NCBI GenBank assembly: GCA_022360095.1
Contig: JAKSDK010000801.1
Location: forward strand, 62,001-126,000
Length of the DNA: 64,000 nucleotides
Reading direction: 5' to 3'
Origin: Phycisphaerales bacterium
GTDB taxonomy: Bacteria; Planctomycetota; Phycisphaerae; UBA1845; UTPLA1
Part shown: one piece after another, positions 9,072-31,952 of the stretch
How the letters are laid out: each line of letters starts with the position of its first letter
How positions within the stretch are numbered: position 1 is the first letter of the stretch
The notes under the pieces: model-generated
What the model saw: the letters and a program-made list of their open reading frames with translations, nothing else
Told to the model about the DNA's origin: nothing
Databases searched by the model: none
Made by a program: the position numbers and the translations under genes

Positions 9072-11981
9072 TTAGTTCAAGGGTGTTCCAGTGCTCCCGT
9101 CGTTGAACTCGCCCTGTTCGATGTTTTCGCGTTGCTGCCGGCGGAAGTTGTCCTCCATCCTCCTCATTGCGTCTTCAAGCTGCCTACGGAAAAGATCTGC
9201 CAGGGCTGGAGGAACCTGCTTGCCAATCTTGGAGAGAAAGATTTCCAGGCTGTCTGAAAACGCATCACCCATGGCGTCCTTTAGCGCCTCAGGTAACTTC
9301 TCTTGGATAGGCTCCAACACTTCTTCGATGACCTGAACGTTCCTTTCGCTCGCGGTCTCAAACAGTTCGTTGATGCGCTCGAGCCTTTGCTCCAGTGCAT
9401 CTCGCTCATCCGTCGAGTCGACGCCGCCCCTATGCTCGAGCAGCCTGGCGATGTCTGATCTGCCCTGGATGGTTAGCTGCTCGCCGAATTTCTGGGACAA
9501 GTGCTGCCTGATGAATTTCTCGTCGATGATGTCGAACTGCTTGAGCCTCGACAGCTCGGCCGCTGATACACCAGAATCCTGCCCGGCGAGAAAACGTTGC
9601 TGGACATCGAATGCCTTGGCGATGTCTGCAGTGAATTTGGCGACTTCGGCCGGTCCCTTTTGGGCGGCAGAACCGAACCGATCAACAATGCCCTGGTTTT
9701 GCTTGATCAAGGTCTGTTGCTTCGAAAACTCAGACGTCGCGCCCTCAATCAGTAAGCTCGCAAGTTCCGCTTGATTTTCCTGTGCGTTCTTAAACAGATT
9801 CTTCAGCTTGCCGAGGTCATCCAAGGGATCCTGTACAAGGCTCGCCACTCCCAACGTTGCCTTGAAATTGGGATCGATGTCCAGGAGCGCCCCGGGCGCC
9901 TCGTTGCCAATCAGTTCCTGAATGCGCTCGTTGATGCTGGAGATTCGGTCTTCGGGGTCTCGAAGCGGCTCCAGGATCTCTTTAATCGATTGGCTGATGT
10001 GCCTCGACTGATCGATGATCTGCTCGCGGGCATTGCGGCCGAAATTGATGATTTCGTCATTGGCGCCCAGGAACTGGTCTTTTAGAGAGCCGAGGTCGTC
10101 CTCAAATTTCAGGAAGAGGCCTTTGGATAATTTGCTTTCCTCTTTGAACCGAAATCTGAATGACCCAATTTTGTCGAGCGCCTCCTGTTCTTTGTCAGAC
10201 GTGTCGACGGGGCGCTCAGAAGATAATCCGAAGGTCGTGAGTTGACGCAGTGCGACGGCACCGGATCTGAAAAATGATTCCCCGGTCCTCTGTCTCTCAA
10301 AGAACGAATCGAGGCCACCAAATGTGGGTGAAAACCTGCCCGCTACACCAAGTAACGAATTTGCCAGAGACCTCTCTTGTTCCTGTCTGATCCTGAACGT
10401 CTCGGCGGCATCAGGTGCATTGAGGGCAACATCCAAGGCAACGCCGGCCGGGCCCAGGAATTTTGAAAACTTCGAAAACTTGGAGACCCGCGATAGCGTT
10501 GCTGCGCCTTTTGTACTGCTGCTGCTTCTACCTGTGGATCCCAAGCCCTTTGGCTCGGTACCGAACCGGCCGAGCAGGAATTCTTGGTGTCCAGTCGCTA
10601 TCGAAGGGTCGGCTGCGAAGAGGCCTCGCTTTGCCGCTGCGGCAGCGGTGCTCCCAGTAGCCCCGGCGCTTATTGCGCTGCTTGCGGCCGTGGACACGGC
10701 CTTGGCTTGAGCTGAGGCTCTTCTTCCGATCAACCCTCGGGTGCCGCGCCCCGCAATGCCCGCCCCGAACCCCGCGATCGAGGGGGCGAAATGAAATCCG
10801 CCGGCAACGGCAAGTGCCTTTAGTCCCTCCTCAGAAGAAGCCAGCTTCTTGAGTGACTGAATGAACGCATCGGCCAAGGTTCCAGCGAGCCATACAGCGA
10901 ATTCAGCAGCCGGCTCTTTCGCCTGATCGAACAGATTGCCTGCGACATCTTTGAAATCCGCGCCTTCCTGTAGCGGCTGAAGAATTTCAGATTTCGAAAA
11001 GGCAGCGGCCGACTTGAAGGCCTCGTTCAGGAACTGACCCAGCTCGTCAGTGACCCGCGCAGTGACGCCCGTACGCTCGAATTCCTCCAGCTGCTTGAGA
11101 AACGCCTGCGCCTCTTCCGTGAGCGAGTCGAACAGCGGCCCCGTCACCTCTCGCAGGCTGTTCGTCGCGGTGTCTTTGATGTTGCTGATCGTCCCGGTAA
11201 ACGTGCGACTCAGGCGATCCATCATGCCGCCGAAGCGTGTTTGGATGATATCCGCGAGGGCATCGAGCGCCTCCTCAGAATCACTCTTGAGCTGCCCGCC
11301 CTTGTCGAACTCAATGCCGCGCGACTCGAACTCGCTACGGCTGATGCCGACGCGACGTAGGGTCTCGAACGCCTCACCGGACGCGCCGGTTCGAAGAAAG
11401 CTGATCGCCCGTACCAGCTGCTGCACCTTCTCCTCGGTCCCACCGAACGCGGCTGCCAGATCACCGACCAGTGGGAGCCACTTCCGCGCATTCAGCCCGA
11501 AGGCTTCGAGCTGCGCTGTCGTCTCCGCCAGTCCCTGTACTTCAAAGGGTGTGGTCTTTGCGAATCGGATGATCCACGCGATGTCCGCGTTGGCCTTGGC
11601 CTGTGAGCGTTGGACGGTCTCGAGCGTCAGTCGATACTTCTCGAACTCCGCGTTGAGCCCGATGCCCTGCTTGAGCAGCAGCGTTCCCGCTCCAACCGCG
11701 GCCGTGCCGGCGATGGTCGACCAACGGAGTGTCGTTCGGACCAGTCCCTGCATGGCTCGAGTCCCCGACTCCGCACCACGGACGAGCGACCGTTCAAACT
11801 GTCTTGATGTCTGGATATTTTGGCGGAAGGCCGAGTTCAGCCTCCGTGCACCGACCCTGCCCTGGCTGTGCATTCGTTGCTGTTGCAGTTCCAGGCGCCG
11901 GTACTGATTGCCGAGATCGCGGAGGCCCCGCTCGAAATCATTGACGATGCTGATCGGTATGAGGACTTCTTCGTCGGCCAT
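9072..11981 (-). CDS. Tail tape measure protein
   Basis: A 969-residue mostly alpha-helical protein. It begins with a basic coiled-coil-like region (FERGLRDLGNQYRRLELQQQ), then a hydrophobic helix (STIAGTAAVGAGTLLL). A segment characteristic of tape measures follows (TTPFEVQGLAETTAQLEAFG, then FGGMMDRLSRTFTGTISNIK). The second half is long Gln/Glu-rich helix. It lies three bases after the frameshifted assembly-chaperone gene, the canonical order. At roughly 0.15 nm per residue the tail would be near 145 nm, typical of a siphovirus; that figure is an inference from the family rule. Confidence 0.93.
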   Translation of the reverse strand: MADEEVLIPISIVNDFERGLRDLGNQYRRLELQQQRMHSQGRVGARRLNSAFRQNIQTSRQFERSLVRGAESGTRAMQGLVRTTLRWSTIAGTAAVGAGTLLLKQGIGLNAEFEKYRLTLETVQRSQAKANADIAWIIRFAKTTPFEVQGLAETTAQLEAFGLNARKWLPLVGDLAAAFGGTEEKVQQLVRAISFLRTGASGEAFETLRRVGISRSEFESRGIEFDKGGQLKSDSEEALDALADIIQTRFGGMMDRLSRTFTGTISNIKDTATNSLREVTGPLFDSLTEEAQAFLKQLEEFERTGVTARVTDELGQFLNEAFKSAAAFSKSEILQPLQEGADFKDVAGNLFDQAKEPAAEFAVWLAGTLADAFIQSLKKLASSEEGLKALAVAGGFHFAPSIAGFGAGIAGRGTRGLIGRRASAQAKAVSTAASSAISAGATGSTAAAAAKRGLFAADPSIATGHQEFLLGRFGTEPKGLGSTGRSSSSTKGAATLSRVSKFSKFSKFLGPAGVALDVALNAPDAAETFRIRQEQERSLANSLLGVAGRFSPTFGGLDSFFERQRTGESFFRSGAVALRQLTTFGLSSERPVDTSDKEQEALDKIGSFRFRFKEESKLSKGLFLKFEDDLGSLKDQFLGANDEIINFGRNAREQIIDQSRHISQSIKEILEPLRDPEDRISSINERIQELIGNEAPGALLDIDPNFKATLGVASLVQDPLDDLGKLKNLFKNAQENQAELASLLIEGATSEFSKQQTLIKQNQGIVDRFGSAAQKGPAEVAKFTADIAKAFDVQQRFLAGQDSGVSAAELSRLKQFDIIDEKFIRQHLSQKFGEQLTIQGRSDIARLLEHRGGVDSTDERDALEQRLERINELFETASERNVQVIEEVLEPIQEKLPEALKDAMGDAFSDSLEIFLSKIGKQVPPALADLFRRQLEDAMRRMEDNFRRQQRENIEQGEFNDGSTGTPLN

Positions 11982-11984
11982 CGA

Positions 11985-12961
11985 TCATCGTTTCAAGACC
12001 GTCAGTGCCAGAAGGCTGCCGAGTGGGCCCGCCTTTTTCGTCAATTCCACACCCTGATCCCTAGAGACGCTGTCTTCGGCGCCGCGGATGGCGGCAAACA
12101 ACCTGATCTCAAACGGGTCCTGATCGTTGAGCCCGCCGGCACGCGGTGGGATCGACAGCAACGTGAACTGCTCGTAGCGCTGATAGAGCGCCGACCAGCC
12201 CGGCGGCGGGTACCGCGGCTTCTGCAAAATGATGTCTGCGATTGCACGTCGGTCATCTCTCGGCGCCTCGAATTTCCCGCACGGTGTCTTGCGGCAGATC
12301 GGTCGGTCGTGCTTGTCGTCCTGGATCAGTTCTCCACCCGCATCGCGCGCGAGTTTTCCGTCGCCCTGGACCCGGTATCGGAGGCAGTCGCGACATTGGA
12401 GGCCTGCCCGTCCTCGGTACCGGGCGGAGAACCGGATGAGCCTGGCGATTTTTTTTCGGCGTCCTCTACCAGCTGACCGGATTCACGGATGCACCGGATG
12501 ATGAATTGGAGAAGCCGATTGGGTGCCTTCGTGATCGCTTCGACCGAATCGAAGGGCCACGTCTTGTCTTCGGCGCCCTTCAGCGTCCAGGCCCTGAGGT
12601 GGTCGACCACGGATTGCATCGTCTGTCGGGTCTGCGCCTTGATGCGCTCGGGCGGATCGACGAAACCCGTACCAAGGCAGACGGCGCAATCCTGGAAGGG
12701 ACTGCCATTGCGATCTGAACACGCTGGACACGGCTGGTCCCTGCCAATCTTTCGCGCTTCACTGAACTTGGTGGGTAGATCCAGGGAGTCCTGGCCGGTC
12801 ATCGGTGTGAAGGCAAACGTCACCGTGATGGGAAGTTCCCGCGTCTTCTCCATCGTCCGGACGATACAGAGGTCACCGCCGATGTACGCGATTTCCGGCA
12901 CGTTCTCCGGCAGGTTATCGAAGTCCAGATTTCGGATCGTGTCGTTGTTGGTGCTGCTCAT
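11985..12961 (-). CDS. Tail assembly chaperone, long form by predicted -1 frameshift (G-T type)
   Basis: The 12326-12961 gene contains an A8 run read as GAA AAA AAA at 12457-12449. A -1 slip on the heptamer A AAA AAA moves reading into a frame that stays open to a stop at 11985, giving about 325 residues (171 + 154). The new frame is protein-like: LQCRDCLRYRVQGDG, ELIQDDKHDRPICRKTPCGK, then ADIILQKPRYPPPGWSALYQ. It has no ATG or GTG of its own before 12227. The zero-frame tail is by contrast low-complexity Ser/Gly/Thr. The fusion ends three bases before the tape measure. This matches the lambda G/GT arrangement, where the long form binds tape measure and recruits tube subunits. Confidence 0.8.
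12326..12961 (-). CDS. Tail assembly chaperone, short form (G type)
   Basis: A 211-residue protein starting MSSTNNDTIRNLDFDNLPEN. The middle holds a CPAC...CAVCLGTGF zinc-knuckle-like module, then a helical segment (NRLLQFIIRCIRESGQLVED). The last 40 residues are low complexity and follow the slippery A8 run. The gene lies between tail tube and tape measure. In the G/GT system the short form coats the tape measure in excess over the long form; that role is from family knowledge. The start at 12961 is preferred because upstream frame extension covers the preceding tube gene. Confidence 0.8.
   Translation of the reverse strand: MSSTNNDTIRNLDFDNLPENVPEIAYIGGDLCIVRTMEKTRELPITVTFAFTPMTGQDSLDLPTKFSEARKIGRDQPCPACSDRNGSPFQDCAVCLGTGFVDPPERIKAQTRQTMQSVVDHLRAWTLKGAEDKTWPFDSVEAITKAPNRLLQFIIRCIRESGQLVEDAEKKSPGSSGSPPGTEDGQASNVATASDTGSRATENSRAMRVEN
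12449..12455 (-). other. Predicted -1 ribosomal frameshift site (A AAA AAA)
   Basis: On the minus strand codons read GAA AAA AAA TCG; the heptamer A-AAA-AAA matches the X XXY YYZ slippery rule exactly. A slip of one base back gives ATC as the next codon and enters the 154-codon open frame ending at 11985. Position within the short chaperone gene (about four fifths along) is typical for siphophages. Confidence 0.75.
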
Positions 12962-12989: not shown

Positions 12990-13925
12990 CTAGGTCGCGA
13001 TTGTGCACAGGAGTTCGTCATCGCCGGCGTTCGTCGAGACGCCTTTGAAGGGAAGGCGAACATTATTTGTCCCATTACCCGCCTGGAAATCCGGCACGTC
13101 ACCCAACAGCCGGGCACCGGCTGAGGCTGGCGTATGTGACTGGAAGGTCAGGACATCCGACCCGTTCGTGTAAACGATCTGCCAGCCGAACGGCTGATTG
13201 TTATGCCAGGTGGCGAGGATCGCCTTGGTCGTTGCGTTGTTGTCGAGTTCGAAGGTGCCGGTCACCCGTCGACGTCCGCGCTTCATTGCCCGACGGGTCT
13301 GACTGTTGCGGTAGATGTTTCCGTCCAGAACGTGATCGACGCTGATCTCAAAGGAGATCGGCTCCACGACCGTTCCGTTGATGGCCAGGGCCGACTCATA
13401 GTGCTGGACAATAGGGGCCACAGGAAGCGTCGCGGACGTGGCCGTGAGGTTCACGTTGTCGATCATGTCCTGGCCGAGGACTTCCTGCTGTAGTGTCAAA
13501 TGACCGTCATCCTGCGCAGACCGGACCGTGAACCGTGACGATCGGCAGTTGACGGCCCGGTAGATGTCGCCGACCTTGTCGATCTCGACGTTAAAAAGCT
13601 GGAGCTCGGTTGGCTGGTCAAGGACTGGATTTCCGCCGTTGAGCTTTCCGAACGCCAGCTCCAGGAGCTTCGACCAGTTGTCCGGACGCAGGTAGGCCGT
13701 GAACGAACCTGATGCCCCTTTCTTGCCCTGGCGTCGATCCTCGTCGCGCATGCTGATCTGGCCATGCATGACCTGTGCCTCTCGCTCCTCGATCTCTCGA
13801 ATCAGCGAATCGGCGTTCACCGCATAGGGCTGGTAGGCATTGGCGGCGGGATCGGTGTCCCAGTCGGTCTTTTTCCCAATCCGGATCCGATGTTCGTAAT
13901 CGGCGGCAACCCCTAGTTCAGGCAT
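12990..13925 (-). CDS. Tail tube protein
   Basis: A 311-residue protein starting MPELGVAADYEHRIRIGKKT, with alternating beta strands across its length (GSFTAYLRPDNWSKLLELAF; VEPISFEISVDHVLDGNIYR; KRGRRRVTGTFELDNNATT). That architecture and wording is typical of phage tail tube proteins of the type that precede the assembly chaperone. The frame is open to 13952 but the ATG at 13925 begins the typical sequence. It forms the hexameric rings of the tail tube by family knowledge. Located between a connector-type gene and the chaperone. Confidence 0.75.
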   Translation of the reverse strand: MPELGVAADYEHRIRIGKKTDWDTDPAANAYQPYAVNADSLIREIEEREAQVMHGQISMRDEDRRQGKKGASGSFTAYLRPDNWSKLLELAFGKLNGGNPVLDQPTELQLFNVEIDKVGDIYRAVNCRSSRFTVRSAQDDGHLTLQQEVLGQDMIDNVNLTATSATLPVAPIVQHYESALAINGTVVEPISFEISVDHVLDGNIYRNSQTRRAMKRGRRRVTGTFELDNNATTKAILATWHNNQPFGWQIVYTNGSDVLTFQSHTPASAGARLLGDVPDFQAGNGTNNVRLPFKGVSTNAGDDELLCTIAT

Positions 13926-13955
13926 CGCAATAGCCTCCTCATTTAGAACCACACA

Positions 13956-20031: not shown

Positions 20032-20124
20032 GTTGGCCGCCGAGGAGTAATCCGGGTCCAATTTCACGAAAATCTGATGACACAGAGCAAAAGAAGCCGG
20101 CACTAACGACATGGAGAATGCGTG

Positions 20125-23100
20125 ATGGCCAAACGACTAAGAAAACGCATCTTGGAAACAAAAAGTCTATACGACATCCTGCCACCAAGGACCTCGTCTA
20201 GTGGTCGTGAATTCGCTCGTATCGTAAACCTACTCTTGTTTCATGATGGACGCCGAAATGGAAAAACGGTCAGAATCTTCGATGACCGAGCCGGTGACTA
20301 CCATGGCCTTGACGCCTTTGAGAAGCAGCATAAGACGATCACTGTTGGCTATCAACACAAGTTCTATCCGTCTCCACTTAATAATAAAAATCGTGCGGAT
20401 ATCGAGACATCACTATCCAAGACCGTCGAAGGTCTAAAGAGGACCAAACAAACCATTAAAAAATGGATACTGGTAACGCCCCAGGATCCAGTTGAACCAT
20501 CGACGCGCAAGACCGGTGGAGATGTCACGTGGTTCGATAGTCTGCACAGCAAGCACAAACTGACCTTTGAAATTGAACACTGGGGACACACTCAACTCCA
20601 GGCCCTGATACTCGAAACGCCCTCGATCGGACTTAACTATTACCCGGAGCTTTTTTCCAGTGGCGTCACTCGCAAAAAGACAATCCAACAGCTTCGCCTT
20701 CAATACGACATCGCACTTAAGAAGGACCACGGAGAAATAGAGCTTGTCGGAATGTCTGTTTATAAGAAAGAGGCGGCCCGGACTATCCCGATCGAAAACA
20801 TCTACATTCCGCTCTCTGTCATCCCAAACAGCGCGGACGAGAACGACCCCAACATTCCCCGCCGAGATCCACTGGAGCTGCTTGTCCCGGGCACACACCA
20901 TGTCGTCCTGGGTGATCCTGGATCGGGCAAGACGACACTCCTTAGATTTCTGGCCCTTTTCGGTCAATCGGAGCCATTACAGCGACGCTATCGCGTGAAG
21001 GCGAAGGGCAAGCGTTTTCAATTTGAACCTGACGATCGGCTGCCAATCTTGGTCACGTTACGTCGTTATGCAGACGCAATCAAATCCAAAGAGAATTTAT
21101 CGCTTATCGATTATGTAAAGGAAAACACAGAGGCGGATTTTTCCATTACTGGAATATCGACGGAGTTCCTCGAATACTACTTGGAATCGGGAAAGACGAT
21201 CTTGTTACTTGACGGTCTCGATGAACTACCCAATCCAACATTCAAGAAGAAAATCCGCAATCGTATTCGCAACCTCGTGGAGGCCTATCCCGGAAACACA
21301 ACGGTTGTCAGTTCCAGAATCTACGGCTACGAGAGTGACTTTCAATTTGGCGAGGATGAATTCGAACATCACCGCCTAGCGAAATTGCGCCCAGAAGAGA
21401 TCGAGCAGTTTGTCCGGGATTGGTATGACGTGCACCTTGAACGGCCCAAGGACCGCAAGGACTATGTGGAAAGCCTCGTCGGTATCTTGGGTAATGAGGA
21501 AAATGAAGCAATTCGCGAACTGTCGCGGAATCCCCTGCTGCTGACGATTATCGTTCTTGTCCACCGAATCGATGCCGTCTTGCCGGACGAACGCCATGTT
21601 CTCTACGAAAAGTGTACGGAGACATTGCTCAACACCTGGCACACGTCGAAATTCCAAGAAATAGATAGACTTCACAGGGCCCAGGTCGATCGGCTGAACA
21701 TGGAACGCATGCAGGCCATGGCCTACTGGATGCACCACCAGATGGAGAAAACCAAGGCCGAACAACAGGCCGTGGTGGCTTACGGCCCGCTTCAGAAACA
21801 ACTCGCCGAACACATCAAGACTGAAAAACCACCCAATCCTGACTACGCCCCCGAGGACATCGCAACGGCCTTTATCGAGTTCATCCAGGATCGGGCAGGT
21901 CTTCTGGTAGAACTCGGCGACAGACAATTCAGTTTTGTCCACCTCACGTTCCAGGAATACCTTACAGCAAAACATATTCGCAGGTTATCAGAACTTAATG
22001 GTGTCAAAGATTTGTGGGCCACGGAGATTAGGGATCTCTGCTCTATTTCAAGATGGCGCGAGGTGATTCGCCTGCTGGTTGCGGGCTATGGGTCGGACAG
22101 CCAGGAGTTCCTCGTAGAAGAAATGCTGGCATGCGACCACACCAGCACAACGAATGCTCAACTGCTCGGTGGCTTGCTTTTGGATGGCGTCCCCGCCGCA
22201 AACGTGAGGAAACAACGTGTGCTCGAACACCTTCTGATGTCTTCTTCATGCACTCAAGGTGAAAGCGAACTTAGAAACACGCTGTCTGTTCTTCGTGCGT
22301 GCCGCGACAAACCTGATCTCGACAGGCAAGTGATCAAGGCAGCAGTAAAGTCACTTGCCGCTAACCTAGATGATGAGGGGCGAACGAGGCTTCGTCTGGT
22401 AGCGCTTTCTTGCAATATGAAGCTCACCGAGGTATGGGAAACTTGCGGCAAGGGTTTCAAACGAGAATCGGCTTTACTTTCGATGTTTGCAGGGAGAAGG
22501 CTGCGTACGGGCGAGGCCGAGATCCTGAATAGTGACGTGCAGCTTATGTGGGCTTACGCTGATGTTAGATTATTTAAGGGTCCGGCGGGGCGCGTCTACA
22601 CAAGCTTGTCCGCAAGTCTGGATGAAAGCATACACCCACAGACTAAGTGCGAACGATTGTTCGCTCTGCTTCTCTCAGCATTATCAGCAAATTTGACGCT
22701 TGGTCCACTCAACTACTACATTTCATTCCAACTCATTTCTTCTAAAGACACTTGTCTAATGACCTTTGGAAAAAACATGACTCGGGCTCTGGATCGGGCT
22801 CGGGCTCGGGCTCTGGATCGGGCTCGGGCTTTGTCTCTGGATCGGGCTCTGGATCGGGCTCGGGCTCTGGATCGGGCTCGGGCTCTGGATCGGGCTCTGG
22901 CTCTGGCTCTGGCTCGGGCTCTGGATCGGGCTCTGGATCGGGCCAAGGAACAGGCAGTCTGGCAGCAATTGTACTCTGATCCGACGATATCTGAGCAGCT
23001 CGTTCAGTTTCCGTGCGAAGTTTTCCGGTTGGAACCCCAGATGCTTTGGCGTGAAACGCTAAAAATCATCTTTCTGCCCACACACATCGGTCGAATCCGC

Positions 23101-23535
23101 ATAACGGACCCGCAATGGTGGATACAAACGAGAGACGCCTTTAAAACGGGAAAGACAACAATAGCAGACGTGAGCGCCGCAGCGGCTCAACTGATCTTCG
23201 ACAGTACCTTGTACGCGTTGAGCTACTATGACCCCACCAAGAAATCGTTAGGATACAACGACGAACAGATCGCGGAACACAAGCGAAGTTCGCCTAAACA
23301 TCGCGCGGTTTTCGATGAACTCGCAACGCTGACACGCGACAATGAGGACGCACCCTTGCGAATCGCCCACTGCATCCGCGACATTGCCTATGGAGACCGT
23401 TCGCGCACCGATGACCTCAAAGCAATGGTCGAGTCAAATGAGCCCGCCTATCGCAAGATCTTCGAGCGTTGCTATTGGAGGCCAACGAAAGACAAACGAA
23501 GCCGCGGCGTAGGGAAGAAAGTAAAAGATCAATAA
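20125..23535 (+). CDS. PD-(D/E)XK-NACHT STAND NTPase (bNACHT/Avs-like defence protein)
   Basis: About 1136 residues from ATG 20125 (GGAG eight bases upstream). Residues ~20-110 form a restriction-endonuclease-like domain: GREF with E29, DYHGLD with D58/D63, and a YQHKF strand with Q77 and K79. A NACHT domain follows: Walker [10 protein letters not shown] at ~263, Walker [12 protein letters not shown] at ~360, then the sensor-like [11 protein letters not shown] and the winged-helix region [31 protein letters not shown] is also typical. The C-terminus is helical with an LDRA tandem repeat (~886-940). Such proteins sense invaders through the C-terminus and activate the nuclease, by family knowledge. 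The gene lies antisense inside the phage structural operon and looks more A/T rich than its flanks. Confidence 0.9.
22781..22943 (+). repeat. In-frame minisatellite encoding LDRA repeats
   Basis: Tandem, imperfect copies of hexamers CGGGCT, CTGGAT and CTCTGG units (e.g. CTCTGGATCGGGCT) span ~160 bases of the NACHT gene. They encode alternating Arg-Ala, Leu-Asp-Arg-Ala and Ala-Leu steps, eight LDRA in all, predicted to form an amphipathic helix. Unit length is a multiple of three, so copy-number change would keep the frame. Confidence 0.9.
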
Positions 23536-29290: not shown

Positions 29291-29371
29291 CCAGCACACT
29301 TTCCAATTGGGTATCGAGGAATTACAATATCTAACATGGGCGGAGACCAAGCGCAAGAAATCGGACCGGAG

Positions 29372-30604
29372 ATGACGAGAGATAAGGCACTGGAACTGCT
29401 GAACGGGTGGGAAGGGGGAGTCGAGGAGTGGAATGAATGGAGAAAAGAGTATCCCAAGGCGAGAATTCCGAGTCTTGAAAGAGGCAGCTTCAATAGCCCT
29501 TGCCACCTCGAGGGCGCCAACCTCAGCCACGCCAATCTCCGCGAAACCAACCTCGACGGCGCCAACCTCCGCTACGCCGATCTCCGCGAAGCCAACCTCA
29601 GCGAAGCCAACCTCAACGGCGCCGACCTCAGCGAAACCAACCTCCGCGGGGCCAACCTCCGCAGGGCCAACCTCAGCGGGGCCAACCTCAGCGGGGCCGA
29701 TCCCATATTCGCCACGCTGTCTGAAGAATTGGTCGGCCCCACCGAACTCAGGAAGGCAAAACTCATTGCTTTGGGCAGCTGGGGCCGTGCACTGGATATC
29801 TTTTGGACCCTCTATTCAGTTCCATATCTGTTGAATGAGACCATCACGCGAAACACACGCTTCGATCGACGCGCCCGCGACCCGTGGTCCGTCCTCCGTC
29901 GAAACTACACCGGCCCAAACATGATCTTCGTGCTGCTCTTTACGATCGCAGCATTCTTGCCAGTCATTGCGAAAGTGACGTTCTGGTCTGCTGTGAGTCG
30001 GTGGCAGGAGTCTGCGGCGCCCATGGCACTCGAAGCCATACAACGGACATCCGAGTTTCTCGCCAAAACACCTGATCCGGCTTGGTCACCGTGGGTCGAA
30101 AGGGCGCAAGAGCTGACAACAGGCGTCAATCGTGAACGAATCACACCGCGCCAGATTCGAGAGACAATCGAATTGCTTTCTTCAAGCACTGAGATAATCG
30201 AGGCATATCGAAAGCAGACGAATGCAAACGCTGAAAAGCTTGAAGAGCTGAAGCAAATTGAGAATCGGGTGACACAAGCTCAAGAAGCCGTCCGCATTCT
30301 AGGAGATTATGATTTGAAGGAACGTCGAGTGTTCTCGCTCGTCCTCGGAACAGACGACGGCTGGTATGTTGTGATCTTCTCTGCTGTCCTGCTTATCTAT
30401 AACGCGGCCCGCGCAATTCTGACGTATTTCGTCGGTCCACTACGGGATGATGAAGAGCGCGTGGGAGTCTCGCCGGCGTTGGGCGACTACCGGTGGTTAT
30501 GGAGGGTCCACCAGTTTACATCACCGGTACTGGCCATCTCTATTCTCGTCGGCATAGCACGGATTCTGAGCGGCCTTTGGTCGATAGTGCTGGTGCCAGG
30601 GTAA
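29372..30604 (+). CDS. Pentapeptide-repeat protein with membrane segments
   Basis: About 410 residues. It starts MTRDKALELLNGWEGGVEEW, a short N-terminal module shared with the TIR gene opposite (MNRDEAIMLLRSGPEGIQKW). This module, common before pentapeptide repeats, is why I prefer this ATG to 29336. About 13 pentapeptide units follow (A-N/D-L-x-x, to ~residue 120). After that come hydrophobic segments (NMIFVLLFTIAAFLPVIAKV; VVIFSAVLLIYNAARAILTY; SPVLAISILVGIARILSGLW) flanking a helical region. The protein may be a membrane effector gated by its repeat domain. It converges on the TIR gene with 40 bases between stops. Confidence 0.8.
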   Translation: MTRDKALELLNGWEGGVEEWNEWRKEYPKARIPSLERGSFNSPCHLEGANLSHANLRETNLDGANLRYADLREANLSEANLNGADLSETNLRGANLRRANLSGANLSGADPIFATLSEELVGPTELRKAKLIALGSWGRALDIFWTLYSVPYLLNETITRNTRFDRRARDPWSVLRRNYTGPNMIFVLLFTIAAFLPVIAKVTFWSAVSRWQESAAPMALEAIQRTSEFLAKTPDPAWSPWVERAQELTTGVNRERITPRQIRETIELLSSSTEIIEAYRKQTNANAEKLEELKQIENRVTQAQEAVRILGDYDLKERRVFSLVLGTDDGWYVVIFSAVLLIYNAARAILTYFVGPLRDDEERVGVSPALGDYRWLWRVHQFTSPVLAISILVGIARILSGLWSIVLVPG

Positions 30605-30644: not shown

Positions 30645-31811
30645 TCATTCAACTTGATTGTCCGCCAACCCATAATTGACTTTCAGCCCATCGACGAGTT
30701 TCTTGTACACCGACTCGAATTCTTCTGTCTGCCACGCCGAGAAGTCGAGGACGTTCTTTTCAAACACCGGTTCCCAATGAACGTCGTTAGTCTTGGACTT
30801 CCATTCATCGTCAAGAGCAACAGGACAAAGCACGTCGCGTCCTTCGTCCAGTTCTTTCTGTCTGGCCGCTTTCAGTTCATGCTTAACCCAGTCGCTATTC
30901 ACCGACGACTTTGAGAGCACGAGCAGTACTATGTCGTTGAGTCGGATGGCTCGATCAACTTGTTTCTGGATATCGCCCGCATTCAAGTCGTGTCGATCAA
31001 GCCAGGTTGGCGCGCCTTCGCCTTCTAGTCGTTCGTGAATCTTGTCAACAAACTTTGAATCCTCGTGTGAATAGGAGATGAACACACCACCGATGAAGAT
31101 CGGACCTCGATTACGGGCATTGATAACCTCGTATTGCAGGTTGGTGAACTCGTCTGCGGAGAGATCGGGATCATAAGCCTTGGCTGCGATGATCTGCCAA
31201 GACTGAAACCCGCAGCCACGCAAGAAAACGTCTGGTATTCTACCTTTTGATTTGGCCAAGGTTTCGACGCCGACCGAGCACGGACCATAAAACGTGACCA
31301 GACGAAGCCCACTTGCCTCGGACAAATCTAAGGCACTTAGAATGGTGCCATTCATTCTGGATCTTGTGAAGTTTGCGCCACTGAGTTGACTGTCAACGAA
31401 CGTTGTTCCAGAAAGAAAACTAAGACTGAAGTTGACTTTCGTGAGATTAGCATTGCCAAAGTAAGCTACGCCGAGATGGGAGTTACCGACATTGGCGCCA
31501 GTAAGGTTTGCCTGAAAGAAGTTGGCAGAGGCAAAGTGGGCATCGCGAAGGTTGGCAGTGTTAAGGTTGGCGCTTCGTAAATCGGCTTGGGCGAAACTAG
31601 CCCCTCTCAAATTGGCAGCACTAAGATCGGCGCCCCTGAGATTGGCACAGGGAAGATTGGCCTGCCTAAGGTCTACGGCGTGAAGATCAGCGCGGCTGAG
31701 ATCGGCACCGCGGAGGCTGGGAATGTTTTCTCCCTCATTGCGTCGGCGGTTCCATTTCTGGATACCCTCCGGCCCGCTGCGCAGTAGCATTATCGCCTCG
31801 TCACGGTTCAT
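30645..31811 (-). CDS. Pentapeptide-repeat protein with C-terminal TIR domain
   Basis: About 388 residues from ATG 31811 (a longer frame reaches 31859). Residues ~5-175 have the shared N-terminal module and pentapeptide repeats (ADLSRADLHAVDLRQANLPC and on). The C-terminal ~140 residues are a TIR domain: VFISYSHEDSKFVDKIHERL, the acidic loop WLDRHDLNAGDIQKQVDRAI, VLLVLSKSSVNSDWVKHELK, VLCPVALDDEWK. Bacterial TIR domains often cleave NAD+ or make signal nucleotides in defence systems, by family knowledge; the glutamate expected in the WVKHEL helix is present. It is probably defence cargo at the mobile-element boundary. Confidence 0.88.
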   Translation of the reverse strand: MNRDEAIMLLRSGPEGIQKWNRRRNEGENIPSLRGADLSRADLHAVDLRQANLPCANLRGADLSAANLRGASFAQADLRSANLNTANLRDAHFASANFFQANLTGANVGNSHLGVAYFGNANLTKVNFSLSFLSGTTFVDSQLSGANFTRSRMNGTILSALDLSEASGLRLVTFYGPCSVGVETLAKSKGRIPDVFLRGCGFQSWQIIAAKAYDPDLSADEFTNLQYEVINARNRGPIFIGGVFISYSHEDSKFVDKIHERLEGEGAPTWLDRHDLNAGDIQKQVDRAIRLNDIVLLVLSKSSVNSDWVKHELKAARQKELDEGRDVLCPVALDDEWKSKTNDVHWEPVFEKNVLDFSAWQTEEFESVYKKLVDGLKVNYGLADNQVE

Positions 31812-31952
31812 GAATGAAGGATTGTACATGAACTCGACGGGCAGACTTACCCAGACCATGCGCGGGACCTATACGGGACCGATTTTTAATTTAGCAGGGT
31901 GAATTTGGGGATAAAATCGCCGTTTTTGGGCCATTCACTAAGGGTGAAGTGC

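Follow-up and report, generated by a model that had tools for sequence, protein, structure and literature searches.

A predicted lambda G/GT-type −1 frameshift cassette for tail assembly chaperones in a planctomycete prophage

Between the tail-tube and tape-measure genes of a planctomycete prophage, two overlapping reading frames lie on the minus strand, the second of them in the −1 register and lacking an early ATG or GTG. This locus raises the question of how the second frame is translated, and whether the pair corresponds to the G and GT proteins of phage lambda. The window, which is the whole stretch of 64,000 nucleotides that was analysed (contig JAKSDK010000801.1, Phycisphaerales bacterium), lies on a contig of 207 kb, in a draft genome of 8.5 Mb and 1918 contigs, and the prophage around the cassette encodes a lambda-family portal protein. 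We consider it very likely that the cassette is a −1 frameshift tail assembly chaperone pair of the lambda G/GT type in a long-tailed prophage. Its features are collected in Table 1.

Table 1. Features of the cassette and of its neighbouring genes, in coordinates of the window
Feature	Coordinates	Strand	Basis
Tail tube protein gene	12990..13952	-	Pfam Phage_tube_2 (5e-18); upstream of G
G-type ORF, zero frame, 211 aa, ATG start	12961-12326	-	Homology to relatives' G ORFs
CPAC...CAVC insert in G, zinc-knuckle-like	12650..12742	-	Alignment with relatives' G
Shine-Dalgarno-like GAGGA, possible stimulator	12462..12466	-	6 nt upstream of heptamer
Slippery heptamer A AAA AAA, X XXY YYZ phase, inside A8 run	12455-12449	-	In-frame reading; junction kept in relatives
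T-type extension, -1 frame, 154 aa + stop	12449-11985	-	Homology to L059 and L020; coding signature
Four-cysteine cluster of extension (CxxC...CxxxxC), putative zinc site	12279..12395	-	Cysteine conservation in A1
Tail tape-measure protein gene	9072..11981	-	PHROG 973 (1.2e-20); downstream of G

An earlier note, made from the sequence of this DNA, had proposed the frameshift, and most of its description of the site agreed with what we found. The run consists of a G followed by eight A (12457-12449) and is read in frame 0 as GAA AAA AAA TCG, which places A AAA AAA in the proposed X XXY YYZ phase, 40 codons ahead of the stop of G. The conserved chaperone part of G reaches the slip site and is followed there by a zero-frame tail of 40 aa, rich in S, G, A and T and of low complexity, as had been noted. 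Open from 12482, the −1 frame runs on to a stop at 11987-11985, and the tape-measure ATG stands at 11981, in keeping with the statement that the extension ends 3 bases ahead of that gene. The tape-measure gene also matched Pfam TMP_3 (9e-8), under that model's curated cut-off. The description of the −1 frame as 154 open, protein-like codons was likewise supported, as its codon signature is that of the other phage genes: GC at the three codon positions was.57/.44/.74 in the G frame before the slip,.62/.47/.76 in the T frame after the stop of G, and.61/.44/.72 in other phage genes. The T frame scored +0.20 per codon, compared with −0.32 for both other frames, and it is at the slip site that the coding signature passes from frame 0 to frame −1.

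Genes of other kinds were also observed in the window. Between the prophage's genes for the portal and for a putative head protein, the opposite strand carries a gene for a NACHT-domain ATPase (20122-23535, plus strand; Pfam NACHT, 9e-9). It has a [10 protein letters not shown]-type repeat and is possibly a prophage-borne defence gene. Near the prophage edge, a minus-strand gene (30645-31859) encodes a protein in which a TIR domain (TIR_2, 5e-24; PADLOC TIR models) comes after pentapeptide repeats, and adjoins a gene for another pentapeptide-repeat protein (29336-30604, plus strand).

Within the 157-nt overlap of the two frames, A AAA AAA is the single in-phase XXXYYYZ. When the overlap was shuffled with its dinucleotides preserved, 3.1% of the shuffles contained an in-phase AAAAAAN and 10.7% an XXXYYYZ of any kind with A or T as Y; in-phase AAAAAAN was absent from the other phage genes (about 6,600 codons scanned). 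Taken alone, the window is weak to modest evidence for a frameshift, and it is the relatives that decide.

Used directly as queries, G and the extension of the window returned nothing from IMG/VR or from 50,697 phage records, and G likewise found nothing in 100 related genomes. Relatives were reached through the tape-measure and tube proteins within the phylum, and then with a profile of the extension; scans of genomes and viral contigs gave five loci, three of which were new to the set (L054, L056 and L058). The aligned set comprises 18 loci besides the window, two of them near-duplicates, since L054 (Blastopirellula marina DSM 3645) is a near-identical copy of the same-phylum L033. The four weakest matches of one profile search were left out, as were L048 and L052, which look decayed and lack the G/slip junction. 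L052 has a T piece without G. In L048 (genome G489, reverse strand, ORF 688-2217 in reversed coordinates) the T-type cysteine segment lies inside a capsid-like ORF of 510 aa, as would result if capsid and tail genes of a decayed prophage had been fused by a deletion. The nearest relative, L059, shares its bacterial family with the window, and its extension matched that of the window at 29% identity along 153 aa (E = 1e-21); L020 matched at 28% over 120 aa (E = 4e-11).

Each of the 18 loci has a homologous G and, behind it, the extension in the −1 register; a canonical heptamer marks the precise junction in 17 of them. The earlier note had named the absence of homologues of the extension and of a conserved slippery site in relatives as what would count against it, and the homologues as well as the conserved site were found. 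The heptamer is AAAAAAC in 14 loci, GGGAAAC in L029, GGGAAAA in L059 and AAATTTT in L020; these changes retain the XXXYYYZ form, as predicted by selection for tandem slippage. L058 is the sole relative with a broken heptamer, AAGAAAC (L058:3995-4001), and retains both the −1 arrangement and a Shine-Dalgarno-like stretch. Of the 18 relatives, 14 have a zero-frame stop immediately after the position of the heptamer. The zero-frame tail of the window is longer than the 0-8 codons of its relatives and, like the broken heptamer of L058, counts against the frameshift reading.

The two frames might instead be one continuous ORF, interrupted by gene decay or by a sequencing or assembly indel such that the count of the A8 run is wrong. 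Homopolymers are error-prone and the assembly is a draft of 1918 contigs; against this, the same −1 arrangement recurs in the 18 other loci, several of them in single-contig genomes and with differing heptamers, and each frame is coding on its own side of the site. We therefore rejected assembly error and regard an indel or decayed gene as highly improbable.

Alternatively, T could be made as a protein in its own right, with a start inside the overlap. The extension contains TTG codons, and some relatives have a GTG or ATG a few codons past the slip. In the window, however, ATG and GTG are missing from the extension until about codon 134, and the first TTG (12227), the first possible start, comes after the conserved cysteines. 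The earlier note's statement that the extension has no ATG or GTG start holds before that codon. In five relatives (L026, L047, L030, L060 and L028) the −1 frame opens just 3-15 nt upstream of the heptamer, and therefore the shift must occur there. An own start would also leave the conserved heptamer unexplained. Independent initiation of T was rejected on the conserved heptamer and the lack of an early start in the window, and we give it almost no credence; the extension is probably translated solely as a fusion to G.

Transcriptional slippage on runs of A is known to yield fusions of this kind as well (PMC5009743), and with eight consecutive A in the window, RNA polymerase could slip there and the fusion could be read from mRNAs with an extra A, alone or alongside ribosomal slippage. 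The heptamers of the relatives, AAAAAAC, GGGAAAC, GGGAAAA and AAATTTT, fit tandem tRNA slippage, whereas they are short or mixed for the polymerase. Because of these heptamers, ribosomal slippage is the better general explanation, and we regard a contribution of transcriptional slippage as unlikely.

A covarying hairpin after the site in one group of relatives also speaks against slippage by the polymerase. Seven relatives share a stem of 10 bp, closed by a 7-nt loop, that starts 8 nt after the heptamer; 98.6% of its cells were paired, six cells carried double changes, its covariation score was reached by none of 500 shuffles, and slid registers stayed below 60%. These sequences are also protein-coding, which explains part of the column conservation but not the pairing changes. 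Other relatives have stems at a similar position in a shifted register, and pooling 15 relatives weakened the covariation, as the groups do not share one register of the stem. Folding z-scores were −3.9 for L043 and −2.3 for L059, and the window showed no significant structure downstream of the heptamer (z of +0.8 to +1.4). Upstream of its site, the GAGGA of the window is calculated to form an anti-Shine-Dalgarno duplex of −5.8 kcal/mol, and about 93% of control windows from the same genes gave a weaker one; purine-rich stretches of this type precede the site in many loci. Since acidic codons dominate there, these stretches are suggestive only as stimulators of slippage.

The extension carries a CxxC (C19, C22) and a CxxxxC (C52, C57), the two cysteine clusters that the earlier note had described. 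C19, C22 and C57 are invariant in A1, and the fourth cysteine is present at a position that shifts, which would be consistent with zinc binding. The extension and those relatives that were searched had no significant match in Pfam, PHROGs, PDB or the 50,697 phage records, and judged by these sequence searches the four-cysteine T family is new. A sequence-profile search of PDB gave chance matches only, and among the Pfam and PHROG tail assembly chaperone families the best named match was Phage_TAC_4 (E = 0.06), for two relatives. The predicted structure of the extension (pLDDT 54.8) was too poor for use.

G of the window alone contains the CPAC...CAVC insert, which is missing from G of all relatives aligned. 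Its AlphaFold model (pLDDT 73) had no match in PDB. In BFVD, several neighbours, at weak to moderate scores, are annotated as tail assembly chaperones; TM-scores are mostly below 0.5, and the one match at E < 0.001 is an unnamed protein. The predicted fold may be weakly chaperone-like. Among the closest predicted-structure neighbours were the chaperones of Gemini (Bacillus), Molivia (Arthrobacter) and Predator (Mycobacterium), with weak scores (E of 0.015-0.09, TM under 0.4); at the sequence level, tblastn, Pfam and PHROGs gave no match.

As the earlier note had proposed, the cassette resembles lambda gpG/gpGT: in both, the genes lie between the major tail protein and the tape measure, a −1 shift, known in lambda and predicted here, falls near the end of G at a canonical in-phase heptamer, and the T frame ends at the tape-measure gene. 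The lambda sequence has an in-phase GGGAAAG at the equivalent place, read as G GGA AAG where the window has A AAA AAA, and lambda T is without cysteines whereas T of the window has four. Neither G nor T of lambda has detectable sequence similarity to its counterpart in the window; aligned with lambda T, the extension showed no recognisable homology (hhalign probability 0.2%). Low sequence similarity is usual among G/GT-type cassettes (PMC5009743), and for this reason we still file the cassette with the lambda type. The haloarchaeal tailed viruses HCTV-1, -2 and -5 have G-T slip sites GGGAAAC, AAAAAAC and GGGAAAG (PMC5009743), a mixture close to that seen in the relatives of the window, although their hosts are archaeal; the likeness is one of slip sites.

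The tape measure is bound by G in lambda and the tube protein by the T part of GT, and the G:GT ratio matters (PMC5009743). For the prophage, we infer from sequence that slippage occurs and, with it, some efficiency of slipping: most ribosomes would read G to its own stop and produce an abundant chaperone, while a minority would slip back by one base with AAA and AAA of the heptamer in the P and A sites, producing a rarer G-T fusion. If the prophage works as lambda does, the tape measure may be coated by G, and the few GT molecules may use their T extension to recruit tail-tube subunits, so that tube polymerisation starts; the binding partners of G and GT are likewise taken from this analogy.

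The kind of frameshift is already known, and what is new is the four-cysteine T family together with the zinc-knuckle-like insert in G of the window. Among the open-licence papers searched, we found none on G-T frameshift cassettes in planctomycetes. An ordinary annotation would miss the extension of 154 aa. The conserved tail-chaperone frameshift is extended here to a planctomycete prophage family whose T domain is unrecognised by the databases searched, and the 19 aligned sites, with five canonical heptamer types and one covarying hairpin, can be used for annotation and for tests of slippage. On a tentative reading, which we think slightly more likely to be wrong than right, these prophages define an undescribed family of tail chaperones in which T is a zinc-stabilised, tube-recruiting module and G of the window gained a zinc knuckle of its own; if true, both halves of the fusion would bind metal.
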